Shown one piece after another: positions 11,221 to 36,187 of a DNA stretch of 64,000 bases. The stretch covers positions 62,001-126,000 of the forward strand of contig JAGVQM010000036.1 in the NCBI GenBank assembly GCA_020051695.1, in the 5' to 3' direction. A program made the translations under genes and the position numbers. Numbering within the stretch: the stretch's first letter is position 1; each line of letters starts with the position of its first letter. Under the pieces are notes generated by a model, which was not told the origin of the DNA, ran no database searches, and was given only the letters and a program-made list of their open reading frames with translations. The DNA is from Candidatus Zixiibacteriota bacterium. GTDB taxonomy: Bacteria; Zixibacteria; MSB-5A5; WJJR01; JAJRUJ01.

Positions 11221-11748
11221 TTATTGATAGATGAAATCATAGTCCCGGTCAACAGATATAATCCCAGAACCTTGACCGCACCAATCCCGCGCACTGGAAT
11301 ATTCAAAATCATCCGGCTCATCGACAAGATCACCCCGCACCGGATTCGTATGAATATACTCCAGCTTAATCCGAAATTGCTTTTCCGAAGCAATCACCAA
11401 ATCATCAAAGCGGCGCTGCCATAATTGAAAGCGACCATTGCGAGTCAAATGTTTTCGGAAATCTCCCAAGTCCAAAGATTTGATCTTTCTGGCGGCAATA
11501 CTTTTGAATGCCTGCATAACTTGGGATAATTCTGCGACATCAGGAAAGCCCAGAATCGCGTGAACATGCGACGGCATAATGACATAACCGACAAGGGCGA
11601 CACCGAAGAAACTCATTGTCTCTCGTAATTGGCGGGCCGCGGATCTGGCGACAGGTCGACTCGAAAATACCGGTATCCAATCTGTGACCTTGGTAGTCAC
11701 AAAGACCAAAGCCGGTCCGCCTATCCATTTGCATCTTTTGACTGCCAT
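11221..11748 (-). CDS. REP-associated tyrosine transposase (Y1/IS200-like)
   Basis: A 175-residue single-stranded DNA transposase of the Y1_Tnp/RAYT kind. The metal-binding motif is seen as IMPSHVHAIL (HxH), and the catalytic tyrosine lies in KLEYIHTNPVRGDLV, the segment that also gives the family its NPV(R/K) signature. LWQRRFDDLVI is another typical RAYT block. Such proteins are thought to have spread REP palindromes and are usually single copy and domesticated. The start at 11748 is preferred because a REP-like element occupies 11755-11783; the longer in-frame reading from 11865 would translate two REP elements. REP-like palindromes lie on both sides in inverted orientation. Confidence 0.85.
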   Translation of the reverse strand: MAVKRCKWIGGPALVFVTTKVTDWIPVFSSRPVARSAARQLRETMSFFGVALVGYVIMPSHVHAILGFPDVAELSQVMQAFKSIAARKIKSLDLGDFRKHLTRNGRFQLWQRRFDDLVIASEKQFRIKLEYIHTNPVRGDLVDEPDDFEYSSARDWCGQGSGIISVDRDYDFIYQ

Positions 11749-11754
11749 GGCTTT

Positions 11755-11783
11755 GCTTGCGCATGAGGACGTACGCCATTCAG
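11755..11783. repeat. REP-like palindrome, copy 3 (degenerate)
   Basis: CTTGCGCATGAGGACGTACG from 11756 resembles the copy at 11838 with changes in both stem arms. It lies six bases upstream of the transposase start. Confidence 0.45.
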
Positions 11784-11837
11784 ATGATAAAGAGCCACCG
11801 CTGAAATAATCAATCACTTTCTTCGATTGTCGCCCAT

Positions 11838-11862
11838 GCTGGTGCACGAGACGTACACCAGC
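11838..11862. repeat. REP-like palindrome, copy 4
   Basis: GCTGGTG (11838-11844) and CACCAGC (11856-11862) form a perfect seven-base stem around CACGAGACGTA. This core is shared with copy 2 in the opposite orientation. Confidence 0.6.
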
Positions 11863-11887
11863 CACAGGTTATTTGAATCGCGAAAAT

Positions 11888-25222: not shown

Positions 25223-26200
25223 TCACCGCCAGCCGTGGCGCATCAGATCACGCAGATGGTAGGTCAAAACTACCTGCGCACCCGCGCGGAAAATCGCGGT
25301 CAGGTTTTCCAGCACCAGCGATCGTTCATCGGCGTACCCGGATTTTACCAGTAGTTTGGCCGCGGCATATTCGCCCGAGACATTATATGCCGCCACAGGT
25401 AGCGACGTCGCCCGGCGAAAATCGGCAATAATATCCAGATAAGGCAGCGCCGGTTTGACCATCACCCAATCGGCATCTTCCAGCTCGTCCAGTTCCAATT
25501 CGAGCCGGGCTTCCCGGCGGTTGCGATAATCCATCTGGTAGGTGCGGCGATCGCCGAACTGCGGGGCCGATTCGGCCGCCTCGCGGAATGGTCCGTAATA
25601 CGCCGAGGCATATTTGGCGGCGTAGGCCAGGATCCCGACATCGGTATGTCCTGCATCATCCAGCGCGCGGCGGATCGCGCCGACCCGACCGTCCATCATG
25701 TCCGAGGGAGCCACCCATTGAACCCCGGCATCGGCCAGCGCGACGGCCATCCGCGAGAGCACCGGCAAAGTTTGATCGTTGTCGATCGTTCCGTCCACCA
25801 CCAGGCCGCAATGGCCGTGTTCGGTATAGGCGCATAGACAGACATCCGCGAAAACCAGCAGGTCGTCCCCGTAACGCCGCCGTATTTCGCGAGTGACCGT
25901 AATCACCGGATTATCCGCTGCATACGCTGCATCAGCGGTATCCGATTTCCGGCCGGTGACACCAAATAACATAATCCGGCGAATGCCCAGCGCGATATCG
26001 GCCTCAAGCCCGGCCAGAAATTCATCGGGGCTTTCGCGGAAGATCCCCGGCATCCCGGGAATTTCATATTTGACACCGGGCTGATCGGTAACGAAATAGG
26101 GCTGGATCAGCGAAGCGGCCGACCAGCGTGTTTCGGCGAGCATTTCCCGCACCAGTTCGTTGGCCCGTCCCCGGCGCGGCCGTCTACCCAAAATGGACAT
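25223..26200 (-). CDS. hemB: Porphobilinogen synthase (ALA dehydratase)
   Basis: A 325-residue enzyme joining two 5-aminolevulinates to porphobilinogen. FADVCLCAYTEHGHCG has the three cysteines of the zinc-binding type, and the Schiff-base lysines lie in AYAAKYASAYYGPFREA and VMVKPALPYLDII. YNVSGEYAAAKL is also typical. Its start overlaps the end of the hemC-hemD fusion by 17 bases, so the two are expressed together. The terminal tail after LRDLMRHGWR is short. Confidence 0.97.
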   Translation of the reverse strand: MSILGRRPRRGRANELVREMLAETRWSAASLIQPYFVTDQPGVKYEIPGMPGIFRESPDEFLAGLEADIALGIRRIMLFGVTGRKSDTADAAYAADNPVITVTREIRRRYGDDLLVFADVCLCAYTEHGHCGLVVDGTIDNDQTLPVLSRMAVALADAGVQWVAPSDMMDGRVGAIRRALDDAGHTDVGILAYAAKYASAYYGPFREAAESAPQFGDRRTYQMDYRNRREARLELELDELEDADWVMVKPALPYLDIIADFRRATSLPVAAYNVSGEYAAAKLLVKSGYADERSLVLENLTAIFRAGAQVVLTYHLRDLMRHGWR

Positions 26201-27851
26201 ATAATGCCTCCAGTACCCCGGCCAGATCGTGCGTCAGCGCTTCGTTTACGGGAGATACCCCGCGTTTGATTAAATAATCGGTCGTCGACGGCCCAATCGA
26301 AACCACACCTGCCCCAGCCGGGATGGCCGCCATCGCCAAAAAATGCCGCGCCGCCTTGGGGCTGGTCAAGATTACAGCATCGGCCCGTCCGTCCCACACT
26401 GGTCCGGTCTCCGGCTGAACCGTATTATACACGACCAGTGGTTCGATGACCATCCCGGCCTCTTGTAAGGTACGCTCCAATTCACCGCGGCGTTCGGCGG
26501 TAGTGGGAAAAAGTATCCGGGCGCCGGGTCGCCCGTGTCTGGTGATGAATTCCTGTGCAAAACCCTCGCCGGTGGAGACGGCGGGCACGAAGTCCGGGGC
26601 GCGGCCGGCCAGTTCGGCGAAGACCGCCGCGCTCCCCGGCCCCATGACCGCCACACGATTGGCGATCTCCTGCGGTTTGCCCTCCGGATTCAACACGGCG
26701 AAAAACATGCGGATTCCATTCCCCGAGGAAAAAAATAGCCAGTCATAACCGGGCAATCCCGCCAGCGCTCGCTGCTGTTGATCGGCATCTCCCGCGGCAA
26801 CGACCTGCAATGCCGGATAGCAGATCAACTCTCCCCCGGCCGCCACAACGGTAGCGCTGATGCCGGTGACCTGTTCTGCCGGACGAGTGATCACAAACCG
26901 CCGCCGGCAAAATGCCGAGGACGAGTCGGCATTGACCGGACGTGTCAGGGTTCCAACGACGGCATCTACAGCGCCGGTGATAGAACCCGCGGCGACACAT
27001 ACCCGCCGCGGTTTTTCCGACGGCGAGTTTTCGCGGGCGCCCAAAAACGCCGCGAGCGCAATAGACTCCCCCCGCCGGTCGGCACAGACTCCCAGCGGCA
27101 GCTGACAGCCGCCGCCGACTTTTTTCAATACTGCCCGTTCGGCCTCAACCATCTCGCGTGAAGCCGTATCGTCAATCAATCGGACCAGTTCGGTGACCTC
27201 CCGGTCGGCAACGCGGGTTTCGACTGCCAGTGCGCCCTGGGCCGGAGCGGGAATAAACTCATGATCGGACAACTCGACAACTTGTAATTCCTCGAGCGAC
27301 AGATTCAGCCGCCTGACACCGGCCACGGCCAGGACGATGGCGTCATACTCGCCGGCACGCAGCTTTTCGACCCTGGTCGGGACATTTCCACGCAACGCTT
27401 TGATCCGAAGGTCGGGCCGATAAAACGACAGCTGGGCTATCCGCCGCGCCGAGGAACTCCCGACTATCGCCCCCTCAGCCAACCCCCACCGCAAACCGGA
27501 TTCATAGCCGGGGTCGCGCGCCACGATCATATCGCGCCGATCGGCACGCTGGGGCACGGCCGCAAGGTGCAGCCCGTCGGGCCGCGTGGTTTCCAGATCT
27601 TTGCCGGAATGAACGGCAAGGTCGATTTCGCCGGCCAGCAGCGCGGCTTCCAGCTCCTTGGTGAAAAAGCCCTGGCCGGTCATGCGGTTAAAGGGCAGCG
27701 ACGTTTCCCGGTCACCTCGGGTGTGGATGACTTTAATTTCGATTTTGCACGGTCCGCATGCGGTCAGTCGATCACGGATATACTCGGCTTGAATCAGGGC
27801 CAGGTGGCTGCCCCGCGTGCCGAGGATAAATGTCCGCAAGGGTGAGTTCAT
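26184..27851 (-). CDS. hemCD: Fused hydroxymethylbilane synthase / uroporphyrinogen-III synthase
   Basis: One 555-residue protein carrying both steps after HemB. Residues about 5-300 are HemC: LGTRGSHLALIQAEYIRD, GRSGKDLE-type segment HSGKDLETTRPDG, GSSSARRIAQL and VGGGCQLPLGV, in which the Cys binds the dipyrromethane cofactor. Residues about 310-555 are HemD: RRRFVITRPAEQ, DWLFFSSGNGIRMFF and VSIGPSTTDYLIKRG. No stop, frameshift or start signal is seen at the join, so the fusion looks genuine. Fusion should favour handing the unstable hydroxymethylbilane directly from one site to the next. It overlaps hemB. Confidence 0.95.
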   Translation of the reverse strand: MNSPLRTFILGTRGSHLALIQAEYIRDRLTACGPCKIEIKVIHTRGDRETSLPFNRMTGQGFFTKELEAALLAGEIDLAVHSGKDLETTRPDGLHLAAVPQRADRRDMIVARDPGYESGLRWGLAEGAIVGSSSARRIAQLSFYRPDLRIKALRGNVPTRVEKLRAGEYDAIVLAVAGVRRLNLSLEELQVVELSDHEFIPAPAQGALAVETRVADREVTELVRLIDDTASREMVEAERAVLKKVGGGCQLPLGVCADRRGESIALAAFLGARENSPSEKPRRVCVAAGSITGAVDAVVGTLTRPVNADSSSAFCRRRFVITRPAEQVTGISATVVAAGGELICYPALQVVAAGDADQQQRALAGLPGYDWLFFSSGNGIRMFFAVLNPEGKPQEIANRVAVMGPGSAAVFAELAGRAPDFVPAVSTGEGFAQEFITRHGRPGARILFPTTAERRGELERTLQEAGMVIEPLVVYNTVQPETGPVWDGRADAVILTSPKAARHFLAMAAIPAGAGVVSIGPSTTDYLIKRGVSPVNEALTHDLAGVLEALYVHFG

Positions 27852-31747: not shown

Positions 31748-31776
31748 TTGACAAACATAGCCAAATCATGTTATGA
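31748..31776 (+). promoter_or_regulatory. Promoter of the kinase / receiver-transporter operon
   Basis: TTGACA (31748-31753), a 17-base spacer and TTATGA (31771-31776). The leader of about 60 bases contains the small hairpin CCCTGATAAGGG. Confidence 0.6.
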
Positions 31777-31843
31777 GTTTCACAAGCCCTGATAAGGGTA
31801 GCGGCATTTTATCGGCGGGGAACCTGCCGGCGCGGGCGGGGAC

Positions 31844-33526
31844 ATGGCGAGACTTCCGAGTATGGAAGAACACTACCGGGCGTTTAAACGCCGGAACCTG
31901 TTCCGCCTGTCGTTGACCTATCTGTCTCCATTGCTGGTCCTGATCATTTATCTGTACATTCAATATGACGGTTTGATGCAGGAAAGTAACCGCCTGCACT
32001 TGCGGGCTATTGCCGAAAGCCAGGCCAATACCCTCGATTTGTTCCTGGAGGAACGGCGGATCAACTTAAGCAACTTGATCGATGATCCGCGATTTAAGAT
32101 GCCGCCGTCGCCGGAGACTATTCAAGCCAATCTCGAAAAATTAAAACGGGCCAGCGGCGCGTTTGTCGATATCGGTTATTTCGACTCGACCGGGGTGCAG
32201 ATCGGCTATGCCGGACCTTACCCGTCGCTGGAAAAACGCAATTACAGTTCCGAACCCTGGTATATCACGCTCAAGCATGAACCGGATGAATTCATCATCA
32301 CCGACATCTATCGCGGATTTCGCGACCAGCCGCATTTCACGATTGCAGTCAGCCGCTTCATCAACGGCGAGTTTGCGGTGCTGCGCGCCACGCTCTCCCC
32401 CGACCGGATCCATGAATATCTCAGTTCGCTGGAGGGTTCACAGGAGGTTTTCTCCTCAATCGTCAACACGGACGGGTATTTTCAGGTCGTCACCGAACAA
32501 CTCGGCACACCGTTGGAACAATCGAATATCATCCCACCGCAAAATCCGCTCATCGGTTCGGACGAACATGAGGGAAAACCGGACCAGACAACAGCGGCAG
32601 TCGGCGCCGGATCGAATACATATGCGTACGCCTGGCTGCGCGGGGTGAAATGGGCGGTCATCGTGCAAAGTTCCTCCACCACCGGGGGCAGCATATTTTC
32701 GGGGTTCCGGCTGCGGATCATCCTGACCTCCGCGGTCGTGGTCCTGGTCATATTTTTGATCATCAACAACCGGGCCAATAAGCTCGTCCAATGGCAGAAA
32801 GAATCGGACGAGACGCGCGATCAGCTCGAACATGCCGCCAAAATGGCCTCGGTGGGGGAACTGGCCGCCGGGATCGCCCACGAGATCAACAACCCGCTGG
32901 CCGTGATCAATGAAGAAGCCGGGTTGATGAAAGACCTGATGAACCCGGAATTCGAGGAAACCGAAACCATCGAGCAGCTGACCGGCCATCTCGATACTAT
33001 CCAACAATCGGTTTTTCGCTGCCGCGACATTACCCGCAAACTGCTGGGGTTCGTGCGGCGCAGCGCGGCGGACTTGAAACCACATGATATCCACCGGCTG
33101 ATCGACCGGGTCGTGGACGGTTTGCTGGGACCGGAACTGGCGGTGTCCAACGTCGAAGTCATCAAGCGCTATGGGCCGGATATTCCGGAAATCACCACCG
33201 ATGAAAACCAGCTGCAGCAGGTGCTGTTGAATATTGTCAACAACGGTGTAGACGCCCTGGAGGAACGGCCCGGCCAAATCAGTCTGGCCACCGCGTGCGA
33301 GAAAGGCAAATTCCTGATCAGCATCACCGATACCGGCAAGGGCATTCCCCCCGATGAACTCGACAAGATTTTTTTGCCGTTTTTTACGACCAAGGAAGTG
33401 GGCAAGGGAACGGGCCTGGGATTGTCGGTCAGTTATGGGATTATCAAGGGGCTGGGGGGCAAAATCGAAGTCGAAAGTTCCGTAGGCCAGGGCAGCACCT
33501 TTATTATTTCGCTGCCCCTCAAATGA
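31844..33526 (+). CDS. Cache-type transmembrane histidine kinase
   Basis: A 560-residue sensor kinase. Two membrane helices (about 22-42 and 283-303) enclose a 240-residue extracytoplasmic domain with dCache features ([50 protein letters not shown]), a fold that binds small metabolites such as carboxylates or amino acids. The kinase core has [20 protein letters not shown] with the phospho-His, then [29 protein letters not shown] and [20 protein letters not shown]. No HAMP or PAS domain is obvious. The last bases overlap a 44-codon frame that leads into the receiver-transporter gene, so kinase and transporter are made together. The receivers at 33650 and 35702 are its likely targets. Confidence 0.93.
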
Positions 33527-33657
33527 TCAACATCATGATGGACGTGCGTGATCACATCGGGAACGAAGAACACAACATGACACCGTTTTTCGACCGCACC
33601 CTGATTGTCGATGCCCGGGACGCATTGGTTGGTCAGACGGAGCGACAGAATGACTAA
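33523..33657 (+). CDS. Overlapping small ORF between kinase and transporter, 44 aa
   Basis: A frame starting ATGATC at 33523 overlaps the kinase stop by four bases (ATGA) and ends at TAA 33655-33657, overlapping the next start by eight bases. The peptide begins [17 protein letters not shown] and ends ALVGQTERQND; it is acidic and soluble with no motif I know. There is no ribosome site of its own, so translation would depend on coupling. The exact fit of start and stop between two genes argues for translation, either as a functional small protein or as a coupling device. Confidence 0.4.
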   Translation: MINIMMDVRDHIGNEEHNMTPFFDRTLIVDARDALVGQTERQND

Positions 33658-35686
33658 AATACTGCTGGTCGACGACGAGGACGATTATCGTCTGCCCCTC
33701 GCCCGCCGCTTGCAGCTTCGCGAGCTGTTGACCCTTGATGTCAACAACGGCGAGGATGCCATCAAACAGATCCGCGCCGACAAGGACATTGACGTTGTTC
33801 TGCTGGACCGCAAGATGCCGGGTATGAGCGGCGAGCAGACGCTGGAGGAGATCAAGTCGTTCCGGCCGGAGTTGCAGGTGATCATGCTGACGGCCCATGG
33901 CTCGCTGGAATCGGCCATGGAAACCGGGCGCCTCGAGGCCTTTGCCTATTTGCGCAAACCCTGCGATCTGGAAGAGCTGATCGCGACCGTGGCCCGGGCG
34001 CGTGAGGGAAAAGTCCATCTGGCCGCGCGGCAGGAAATCCCGATCGTTGAGAAGGATTCGCTCAAAAAATGGCTGATCGGCACTCATAATTCCCGGCCGG
34101 GGATCATGATCCTGGGGCTGGTGATTTTCGCGGCGCTGCTGTTATGCCCTCCCCCGGCGCGGATGCTGACGCTGGTATCTACGCCCAAGACCGGAGAAGT
34201 CAGCGACCCGCATATGGGGTATGCCGATTACGACAAATTGAAACACGGGGAGACCATCGCCGAGTATTACAGCCACAAATACGGCCTCTCGATGACCGTG
34301 ACCAATGAACAGGGCGAAAAAGTCAAGCAACCGCTGACGCCGAGCCAGACCGCATTGCGCCTGCGGGTGATGCTGGGCATCCTGATCGTGGCAGCTTTGT
34401 TTTGGGCGACGGGCGCCATCCCGGTAGGATTCACCGCGCTGATGGTCGGCGCGGTCATGTATTTTATGGGGATTTTGCGCCCGGACGATATCGCCCAGGC
34501 CTATTCCAAAGATGCGGTAATTTTCATCTTCGGGGTCCTGGCGTTGTCACTGGCGATCAGCAAGACCGGACTTGACCGTCGCATCGGTCTGTTGCTGCTC
34601 GGGCCGGCTTCCAGCCGGGGGCGTCTGCTCTTCATTTTTCTCCCGCTTTTGGGAATCGCCTGTTCTTTTGTCTCCGAACACGCTTTAATTGCGTTCATTA
34701 TGCCGATGTTTATGATGGTCTATGCCGCGGCGGTGCGCGGCGCGGGAATCCGGCAGGATAAAGCGCTGGCGGCGATGTTCGTCCTGGCACTGTGTTTTAC
34801 CGCCAACTGCGGCGGCCCGGGCTCGCCGGCCGCCGGCGGCAGAAATGCGGTAATGATGGGAATCATGGCCGATTACGGCGTGTCACCCACGTTCGGCGAA
34901 TGGGTCCAGTATGGCCTGCCATATGTCCCGGTAATGGCGCTGGTGATTGCGACCTACTTTTACGTCGTCTTCCGACGGAAACTCAAGGTCAAAACACTAA
35001 ATGTTTCCGCATATGTCCGCCAGGCCGCCCAGAAGATCGGGCCGATGAATCATCAGGAATATCTTACCACCGCGGTGTTAGCCGGTGTGATTATTCTGTG
35101 GATTACGGCCAGCGATACCTATGGCATGGGCGGCCCGATCATTTTAGGGCTGCTCGCGCTGAATGTCCTGCGTATCCTGCGCTGGCGTGATGTCGCCAGA
35201 ATCCCCTGGGATGTTGTGGCCTTGTATGCCAGCGCCTGCGCCGTGGGCAAAGGACTGGCGGTGACCGGCGCCGCGTTGTTTCTGGCCGACAGCTTCATCA
35301 GCATTCTGCCGGAATTCATGCGCAGCGGCGAGGGACTGGCCATCGCGGTCAGTTTGTTTACGGGGATCACCACCAATTTCATGAGTGACGGCGCGACGGT
35401 TTCTGCAATCGGGCCGATCACCCTGCCCATGGCCCTGATCTCGGGGACTCATCCCTGGATGATTGGGTTTGCAACCGCGTTTGCCTCATCGTTTGCGCAT
35501 ATGCTGATCATCGGCACACCGAACAACGCCATTGCCTACGCAATGGCCAAAGACCCGATCACCGGCGAACAACTGGTGTCTCTGGGCGATTTTTTCAAAC
35601 ATGGGTTCGTCATACTCCTGCTCTCTTTTGCGGTGCTGTGGGGGTGGGCGTTCTTCGGATATTGGCGATTTCTTGGGTTTCATTAG
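33650..35686 (+). CDS. Response-regulator receiver fused to DASS/SLC13 anion transporter
   Basis: A 678-residue fusion. Residues 1-120 are a complete CheY-like receiver with the acidic pocket Asp8-Asp9, phospho-acceptor Asp53 (VVLLDRKMPGM), Thr81 (MLTAHGS) and Lys103 (YLRKP). A linker of about 30 residues leads to a first helix at 152-168, then a polar loop of about 70 residues and some ten further helices of divalent-anion:sodium symporter (SLC13) type. Conserved transporter parts are WATGAIPVGFTALM, GVLALSLAISKTGLDRRI, MLIIGTPNNAIAYAM. The two places where SNT motifs normally lie read SEH (342-344) and SDG (579-581). There is no DNA-binding domain. The start at 33650 has GGAG upstream and overlaps the small ORF. 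Control of transport by phosphorylation from the neighbouring kinase is inferred; the substrate is unknown. Confidence 0.92.
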   Translation: MTKILLVDDEDDYRLPLARRLQLRELLTLDVNNGEDAIKQIRADKDIDVVLLDRKMPGMSGEQTLEEIKSFRPELQVIMLTAHGSLESAMETGRLEAFAYLRKPCDLEELIATVARAREGKVHLAARQEIPIVEKDSLKKWLIGTHNSRPGIMILGLVIFAALLLCPPPARMLTLVSTPKTGEVSDPHMGYADYDKLKHGETIAEYYSHKYGLSMTVTNEQGEKVKQPLTPSQTALRLRVMLGILIVAALFWATGAIPVGFTALMVGAVMYFMGILRPDDIAQAYSKDAVIFIFGVLALSLAISKTGLDRRIGLLLLGPASSRGRLLFIFLPLLGIACSFVSEHALIAFIMPMFMMVYAAAVRGAGIRQDKALAAMFVLALCFTANCGGPGSPAAGGRNAVMMGIMADYGVSPTFGEWVQYGLPYVPVMALVIATYFYVVFRRKLKVKTLNVSAYVRQAAQKIGPMNHQEYLTTAVLAGVIILWITASDTYGMGGPIILGLLALNVLRILRWRDVARIPWDVVALYASACAVGKGLAVTGAALFLADSFISILPEFMRSGEGLAIAVSLFTGITTNFMSDGATVSAIGPITLPMALISGTHPWMIGFATAFASSFAHMLIIGTPNNAIAYAMAKDPITGEQLVSLGDFFKHGFVILLLSFAVLWGWAFFGYWRFLGFH

Positions 35687-35701
35687 AAAAGGACGGATCA
35701 T

Positions 35702-36187
35702 ATGGCCAACATTAAGCTGCTCATTGTCGACGATGAAGTGAAGTTTCTGGAATCAATTGCCCGCCGACTGGAAATGCGCGATTTCGATGTGACCACTGCC
35801 GCCAACGGCGCCGAGGCGGTCAAAGCAGCGCGTGCAGCCGGGTTTGACCTGGCACTGCTGGATCTGAAAATGCCGGGGATGGACGGCAAGCAGGTCCTGG
35901 AGCTGTTGAAAAAAGAACACAAATACCTCGAAGTTATCATTTTAACGGGCCATGGTTCGGTCGATTCCGCCGTAGAATGCACCAAACTCGGGGCCTTCGG
36001 CTATTTGCCGAAACCATACGAGCTGGAGGAACTGCTGGCGGTGTTGCAGCAGGCCTATGAGGCGCGAATGAAAAAGAAATTCGAGTCCAATCAGGCCAAA
36101 CTCGATGAAATCACCCGGCTGGCCATCGGCTCCAGCCCGCTGGGGATCATGCGCGAACTGGCTAAACTCGACGACAAGGAGAAATAA
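35702..36187 (+). CDS. Stand-alone receiver-domain response regulator
   Basis: A 161-residue protein: one receiver with the Asp pocket (LLIVDDEVKF), phospho-Asp in LALLDLKMPGMDG, Thr in ILTGHGS and Lys in YLPKP, followed by a helical tail of about 40 residues (ARMKKKFESNQAKLDEITRL) without a DNA-binding fold. It starts 15 bases after the receiver-transporter fusion and resembles that receiver closely (KMPGM, HGS, LEEL), suggesting duplication. It may be a phosphate sink, a shuttle or a competitor for the kinase. The family is well known; its role here is inferred. Confidence 0.93.
   Translation: MANIKLLIVDDEVKFLESIARRLEMRDFDVTTAANGAEAVKAARAAGFDLALLDLKMPGMDGKQVLELLKKEHKYLEVIILTGHGSVDSAVECTKLGAFGYLPKPYELEELLAVLQQAYEARMKKKFESNQAKLDEITRLAIGSSPLGIMRELAKLDDKEK

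Follow-up and report, generated by a model that had tools for sequence, protein, structure and literature searches.

A receiver domain fused to an SLC13/DASS-fold transporter in a Zixibacteria two-component operon: a candidate system for phosphorylation control of sulfate uptake

An operon of Candidatus Zixiibacteriota encodes a sensor histidine kinase (HK), a receiver domain fused in frame to an SLC13-fold transporter (REC::SLC13) and a single-domain receiver (REC2), and from sequence comparison we think it likely that the three form a two-component system in which a secondary sulfate transporter is the direct output, changed by phosphorylation. Sulfate reduction begins with sulfate uptake, the control of which has been modelled as transcriptional; the covalent receiver-transporter fusion with an adjacent kinase makes direct activity control testable using three genes, and would extend the known range of response-regulator outputs to a transporter. 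A limited search of the open-access literature found no report of a transporter in that role. The features below are numbered within the window, i.e., the whole 64,000-nt stretch of contig JAGVQM010000036.1 that was analysed.

31844..33526, plus strand: membrane sensor histidine kinase, 560 aa (Pfam; orthologue, 39-62%, upstream of 49/55 fused loci)
31979..32665, plus strand: dCache_1 extracytoplasmic sensor domain, kinase residues 46-274 (PF02743, E=1.3e-14)
32855..33061, plus strand: HisKA dimerisation/phosphoacceptor domain, kinase residues 338-406 (PF00512)
33197..33520, plus strand: HATPase_c catalytic domain, kinase residues 452-559 (PF02518, E=9.8e-27)
33527..33649, no strand: gap where 48/55 relatives have a CBS-pair gene, none here (locus comparison)
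33650..35686, plus strand: REC::SLC13 fusion, 678 aa (Pfam, homologues, AF2 mean pLDDT 86.6)
33659..33991, plus strand: fused receiver domain, fusion residues 4-114, phosphoacceptor Asp53 codon 33806-33808 (PF00072, E=3.8e-22)
34364..35647, plus strand: SLC13/DASS-fold transporter core, Na_sulph_symp, fusion residues 239-666 (PF00939, E=8.2e-39, 134 bits vs cut-off 27)
34673..34681, plus strand: Ser342-Glu343-His344 replacing the first SNT motif (invariant in 55/55; aligned with SNT of VcINDY)
35384..35392, plus strand: Ser579-Asp580-Gly581 replacing the second SNT motif (invariant in 55/55; aligns with VcINDY chains at their second motif)
35702..36187, plus strand: single-domain receiver REC2, 161 aa, Asp54 codon 35861-35863 (PF00072, E=2.1e-29)

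All three ORFs are intact and form the tight plus-strand run described in the first-pass annotation, with gaps of 123 bp between kinase and fusion and 15 bp between fusion and REC2, and Pfam places Response_reg and Na_sulph_symp in one uninterrupted 678-aa frame. That annotation had also named a frameshift or misassembly at 34010-34100 as the possible origin of the fusion, and adjacent unfused REC and SLC13 genes do exist (L153); nothing else favours a chimeric ORF made of two ordinary genes, and we give this reading practically no credence. It is refuted by more than 50 copies in other assemblies, which are full length and unbroken across the junction at 55-73% identity, by the conserved linker, and by the tree, in which the fused copies are monophyletic and separate from the unfused ones (support 99/99). 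The AF2 model is of lower confidence at fusion residues 81-100 and 121-140. Two further candidates were rejected: a 44-aa ORF between kinase and fusion, judged by eye to be meaningless and without visible CBS resemblance or any counterpart in loci L068 and L071, and a by-eye promoter (TTGACA-N17-TTATGA, ~31749-31777), which did not pass a consensus filter.

Full-length fusion copies (55-73% identity) were found in 29 genomes of the same phylum as the window, with fragments in five more, and the fusion also occurs in Electryoneota, Planctomycetota and Desulfobacterota, four phyla in all. The architecture, earlier called rare, is uncommon but no singleton; 55 fused loci were compared. Spread by plasmids or viruses was rejected because neither the plasmid nor the virus collection held a fused match. 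The canonical gene order is HK - CBS pair - REC::SLC13 - REC: the kinase is conserved beside the fusion, as the first-pass annotation had suggested checking, the CBS-pair gene lies between kinase and fusion in 48 of the 55 loci, and REC2 follows downstream in 48. The CBS gene is absent from the window, L068 and L071, and has been lost from the window operon; elsewhere in the same genome a CBS protein adjoins an unfused SLC13 (L083). The window operon itself has three genes; a typical system includes a fourth component, which was overlooked earlier.

The kinase has the H box, the N, G1 and G2 boxes (conserved among orthologues) and the input domain expected of a HisKA-type sensor histidine kinase. 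Its putative phosphoacceptor His346 (codon 32879-32881) lies within HEINNPL and is kept in 43/43 full-length orthologues. The fused receiver has the acidic pair, phosphoacceptor Asp, Thr/Ser, Lys and fold of receiver domains (Foldseek matches it to receiver 3jte, TMt 0.90), and the claim that it keeps every phosphorylation residue was borne out: Asp8, Asp9, Asp53, Thr81 and Lys103 are all present. Across the 55 loci the five pocket residues are kept in 51-55 copies (D8 55/55, D53 54/55, T81 54/55, K103 55/55). The copies with degraded pockets, which derive from two independent losses (D9Q in L073, L074 and L076; D9P, D53A and T81S in L145), are exactly the four of 55 without a kinase, and in the genome carrying L145 (G155) a kinase orthologue is found nowhere. 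Two other loci, L106 and L143, end at a contig end; their pockets are intact and the kinase is found elsewhere in their genomes. REC2 (Response_reg at residues 7-115 by Pfam) and the fused receiver are sister clades in the tree, i.e., sister duplicates, and they probably share one kinase; the earlier proposal that the lone receiver tunes or drains the signal is conjecture.

The transporter part belongs to SLC13/DASS (Na_sulph_symp) by Pfam profile and fold, its best Foldseek matches being the NaS1, NaCT and VcINDY folds, with the human sulfate transporter NaS1 (8y5w) as the top PDB match (E=6.8e-17, TMt 0.72). The two SNT motifs of Na+-coupled SLC13/DASS symporters proper are absent, and SEH and SDG stand in their place in 55/55 copies. 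As both signatures are replaced, Na+ coupling should not be assumed, and ion coupling, and even the charge of the substrate, are uncertain for a transporter of this sequence; the label divalent-anion symporter given earlier is unproven in its classical sense.

The external anion of the first-pass annotation can now be given a probable name, sulfate. Among the genomes, dsrA is found in 31/34 fusion carriers against 20/99 non-carriers (p=1.3e-13), in 11/14 against 5/41 within one family (p=9e-6) and in 14/16 against 5/23 within Electryoneota (p=6e-5), although these p-values overstate independence, the genomes being related. The aprA gene is present in 32/34 carriers, and the window's own genome has both dsrA (G000:C36) and aprA (G000:C14); two of the five Planctomycetota carriers have no dsrA match. 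The intended co-occurrence control, nifH, was found in 0/133 genomes and hence gave no contrast between carriers and non-carriers. Of the recurrent flanking genes, only two were informative as to substrate: a bifunctional Sat/APS kinase (ATP sulfurylase/APS kinase) gene adjoins three fusion copies and an APS kinase gene is found in three other fused loci. In one genome (G150) the operon lies ~10 kb from dsrA. We assign sulfate as the probable substrate because of the dsrA/aprA link, the nearby Sat/APS kinase or dsrAB genes, and an unfused relative in Desulfobacteraceae tied in the literature to sulfate transport. That the same switch acts on an organic dicarboxylate, a sulfonate or another anion is unlikely given this evidence, but it would fit the change of both SNT motifs, the score of 168.2 bits with the NCBI SLC13/DASS subfamily model TIGR00785 (curated cut-off 198.6), and the many substrates of SLC13 proteins; the association with dsrA and aprA indicates pathway context and not the substrate itself, so that the cargo may be some organic anion on which sulfate reducers draw.

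In the proposed mechanism, the Cache kinase would sense an external cue, probably sulfate itself, and autophosphorylate on His346; the phosphate would then pass to Asp53 of the receiver on the cytoplasmic N-terminus of the transporter, and also to REC2, and phosphorylation of the fused receiver would alter transporter activity directly. In most relatives, the CBS-pair protein might supply a further input from inside the cell (energy or APS status). The sign is uncertain; a brake limiting uptake is slightly favoured over an accelerator, because the copies without a kinase keep an intact transporter. The post-translational switch proposed in the first-pass annotation is well supported by the fusion in four phyla, the upstream kinase, and a pocket kept or broken together with it, but that proposal lacked the CBS part. 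Recurrence in four phyla, mostly in sulfate-respiring lineages, suggests that uptake is throttled by transporter phosphorylation rather than by gene switching. A transporter acting as a transceptor, with a receiver that mainly reports or scaffolds (recruiting kinase, CBS protein and REC2) while other regulators control genes, appears improbable. In its favour, REC2 is separate and mobile, the published sulfate-uptake model places regulators on promoters (PMC11887813), and receiver proteins of 459-490 aa, an NtrC-type size, lie next to some Desulfobacterota clusters. However, a Pfam search found no DNA-binding domain in the receivers of the window operon, none was detected in 49 scanned receivers (<= ~310 aa) of Desulfobacterota-type loci, neither the window operon nor its relatives contain a DNA-binding regulator, and the fused receiver has lost its pocket in precisely those copies that have lost the kinase.

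We lean towards a broader view: a response-regulator class that would have a secondary transporter as its output domain, the covalently linked receiver controlling the entry of sulfate across several sulfate-metabolising phyla, with CBS as second input and, in the DASS-fold transporter, the two SNT asparagines replaced by Glu and Asp, perhaps with a shift from Na+ to H+ coupling. The closest known system is the DASS-type sulfate transporter/two-component/CBS cluster of Desulfobacteraceae (Dvar_38230-38430; PMC11887813), which likewise has an SLC13-fold transporter near a Cache kinase and a receiver; a Desulfobacteraceae MAG (L155, genome shared with L014) carries an unfused homologue (44-45%). 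That cluster has a CBS protein, found in 48/55 fused relatives but not in the window operon. Transporter and receiver are encoded apart there, within large clusters, whereas the fusion makes them a single protein of a compact operon with three or four genes. Its model draws WalR-type DNA-binding regulators acting on promoters (PMC11887813), in contrast to the window receivers and the 49 scanned related-locus receivers (<= ~310 aa), in which no such domain was found; by a "Rosetta stone" argument from the fusion, the separate receivers of the Desulfobacteraceae cluster are predicted to act on transporter/CBS partners, not on DNA. VcINDY, NaCT and NaS1 (SLC13A1) share the fold and Pfam family of the fusion, but not its N-terminal receiver or SEH/SDG in place of SNT/SNT. 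The SLC5/STAC sensor kinases (CbrA, CrbS/MxtR; PMC7918813) also join a secondary transporter covalently to a two-component domain, but on the input (kinase) side via STAC; no SSF or STAC match was found by Pfam in the window operon, where the kinase input is dCache_1 and the transporter is the receiver output. Finally, as with single-domain regulators that work through protein contact (CheY type, and one of a phosphoglycosyl transferase, PMC12802240), the receiver would control a protein target and not DNA; the difference here is that the target is a transporter joined covalently to the receiver.

The three open reading frames lie exactly where the first-pass annotation had placed them, and the following domains were assigned to their products by Pfam search:

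31844-33526, plus strand: sensor kinase (dCache_1, HisKA and HATPase_c)
33650-35686, plus strand: REC::SLC13, receiver plus SLC13/DASS-fold transporter in a single frame (Response_reg and Na_sulph_symp)
35702-36187, plus strand: REC2, lone receiver (Response_reg only)

CitMHS gave a weaker match over the Na_sulph_symp part of 33650-35686. The annotated pocket residues Asp8, Asp9, Asp53, Thr81 and Lys103 were all found in the fused receiver. The AlphaFold2 model of REC::SLC13, made with 51 aligned sequences, shows two confident domains (mean pLDDT 86.6, pTM 0.76); in Foldseek the membrane part matched NaS1 (human SLC13A1), NaCT and VcINDY, and the N-terminus matched receivers. Elsewhere in the window, an apparent hydroxymethylbilane synthase/uroporphyrinogen-III synthase (HemC-HemD) fusion (26184-27851) and an ORF like a REP-associated transposase (11221-11865) were noted by eye.

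Around 55 fused loci the gene order on one strand is constant (kinase, CBS-pair protein, REC::SLC13, REC2), and median intergenic distances are a few tens of bases. Pfam recognises CBS in the CBS-pair protein (~185 aa), which is modeled as two CBS-like units (pLDDT 87). Its gene lies upstream of the fusion in 48 of the 55 loci and is missing from the operon in the window, L068 and L071, where it has been lost; loci L053, L070, L134 and L135 carry two in tandem between kinase and fusion. A 44-aa ORF in the window (33523-33657), whose ends overlap the stop of the kinase gene (ATGA) and the start of REC::SLC13, is probably due to chance, and no counterpart was seen in L068 and L071. At another locus of the same genome (L083, G000:C39:1-19500) a CBS gene comes after an unfused SLC13 paralogue (41% identity), and matches to kinase and receiver lie no more than ~5 kb away; this CBS gene might act in trans for the window operon. 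Paralogous clusters instead encode receiver and CBS protein as one fusion (~300 aa, e.g. L166:3362-4243). That receiver is joined to the transporter in some loci and to the CBS protein in others argues that all three cooperate. The REC::CBS fusion, encoded next to SLC13 genes that are unfused, is a parallel case in clusters of this type, and receiver proteins of ~300 aa also occur in L085, L135, L151 and L152.

The first-pass annotation had proposed that the kinase switches the transporter post-translationally. All 43 full-length kinases share the H box histidine, the N box and the G boxes without variation, and the fused pocket is conserved (Asp8 and Lys103 55/55, Asp53 and Thr81 54/55, Asp9 51/55; one genome is included twice, as L011/L132). 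The exceptions coincide exactly with the four loci that lack the kinase: L073, L074 and L076 carry Gln in place of Asp9, and in L145 Asp9 is replaced by Pro, Asp53 by Ala and Thr81 by Ser. No kinase orthologue was found in the genome of L145 (G155), and the genomes of the other three (G063-G065) each have one close orthologue, adjoining an intact first copy. Loci L106 and L143, where no kinase was seen, end at contig ends; their pockets are intact and a kinase is present elsewhere in their genomes. The chance of such a match is ~3e-6 assuming independent loci, which these are not, but two separate losses are involved. Of the evidence from sequence, this match of pocket decay to kinase loss speaks most strongly for an action of the kinase on the fused receiver. 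Because copies without kinase can be retained, there is a weak tilt toward phosphorylation being a brake on the transporter. The second copies in G063-G065, which lack kinase and REC2, are a kinase-independent, possibly assimilatory version. In a tree of 86 receivers, the clade of the fused receivers is sister to that of the lone ones (94/94), so the two are duplicates and likely share the kinase.

A protein search found relatives of REC::SLC13 in 35 of 133 genomes of the window's phylum, 34 of them with fused forms (full length at 64-73% identity in 29, fragments in 5) and one with an unfused paralogue. The fusion is also present in 16 of 39 Electryoneota (the phylum of Candidatus Hatepunaea; one of the 16 is split over two frames), in 5 of 392 sampled Planctomycetota and in 2 of 395 sampled Desulfobacterota (G899, G755); 13 of the 395 have an unfused relative. 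In the maximum-likelihood tree of the transporter part every fused copy falls on the same side of one branch (99/99), consistent with a single origin. Planctomycetota copies occupy three places, and one group nested amid Electryoneota is consistent with horizontal transfer. Judged from these sequences, the fusion is real and old. In L153 (G708) CBS, REC and SLC13 are three neighbouring genes, likely the pre-fusion state. The RPG motif (residues 149-151 of REC::SLC13) corresponds to one near the N-terminus in unfused proteins, which places the join point directly upstream of the transporter's native N-terminal segment.

Carriage of the fusion is associated with dsrA (TIGR02064): 31/34 carriers versus 20/99 others in the window's phylum (p=1.3e-13), 11/14 versus 5/41 inside one family (p=9e-6; membership of unlisted genomes deduced from handle order) and 14/16 versus 5/23 in Electryoneota (p=6e-5), with dsrA in 3 of 5 Planctomycetota carriers. 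In the window's phylum aprA is present in 32/34 carriers, and every carrier has dsrA, aprA or both. The window's own genome has aprA, and dsrA in a region read by eye as dsrAB-N-L-M-K (L174); an ORF near it (L174:2652-3176) is similar to window 11221-11865. Operon and dsrA share a contig ~10 kb apart in G150 and ~26 kb apart in G147. A bifunctional sulfate adenylyltransferase/APS kinase (Sat/APS kinase) gene adjoins the kinase-less second copies, and three further loci contain APS kinase genes. In Desulfobacteraceae, clusters have been described in which genes for Cache kinases, regulators and CBS proteins accompany those for sulfate transporters of the DASS type (2025 study, PMC11887813), a make-up shared by the unfused Desulfobacterota relatives. 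From the dsrA/aprA association, the Sat/APS kinase and dsr neighbours and this cluster likeness, we infer that sulfate is the likeliest substrate.

The switch proposal thus holds in outline, since the pocket is lost exactly where the kinase is lost and the operon is conserved, and is now extended by a likely substrate, a fourth partner (CBS), a natural experiment and the finding that the fusion is widespread. The parts of the system are ordinary; their assembly is unusual and well conserved (the literature searched was open-access papers).

VcINDY and mammalian SLC13 proteins have two SNT motifs, which bind cation and substrate, whereas alignment to VcINDY chains places other tripeptides at both sites:

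34673-34681, plus strand: Ser-Glu-His (SEH) for the first SNT motif
35384-35392, plus strand: Ser-Asp-Gly (SDG) for the second SNT motif

Both are invariant in the 55 fused copies and nearly so in unfused relatives, and the TIGR00785 score of REC::SLC13 is below the cut-off. We conjecture that the acidic residues at both sites reflect coupling to protons or another cation. SAH and SDA stand there in L002, an unfused paralogue from the window's own genome. Among 49 receiver proteins from Desulfobacterota and related loci (scanned up to ~310 aa) all have a receiver domain, 6 a CBS domain and none a DNA-binding domain; near some clusters there are also proteins of 459-490 aa, longer than those scanned and comparable in size to NtrC-type regulators. 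This is in conflict with the model in which activated WalR-type regulators act on promoters (PMC11887813). The REC::SLC13 fusion would be the missing link, by which the target of these receivers is probably the transporter and the CBS protein.
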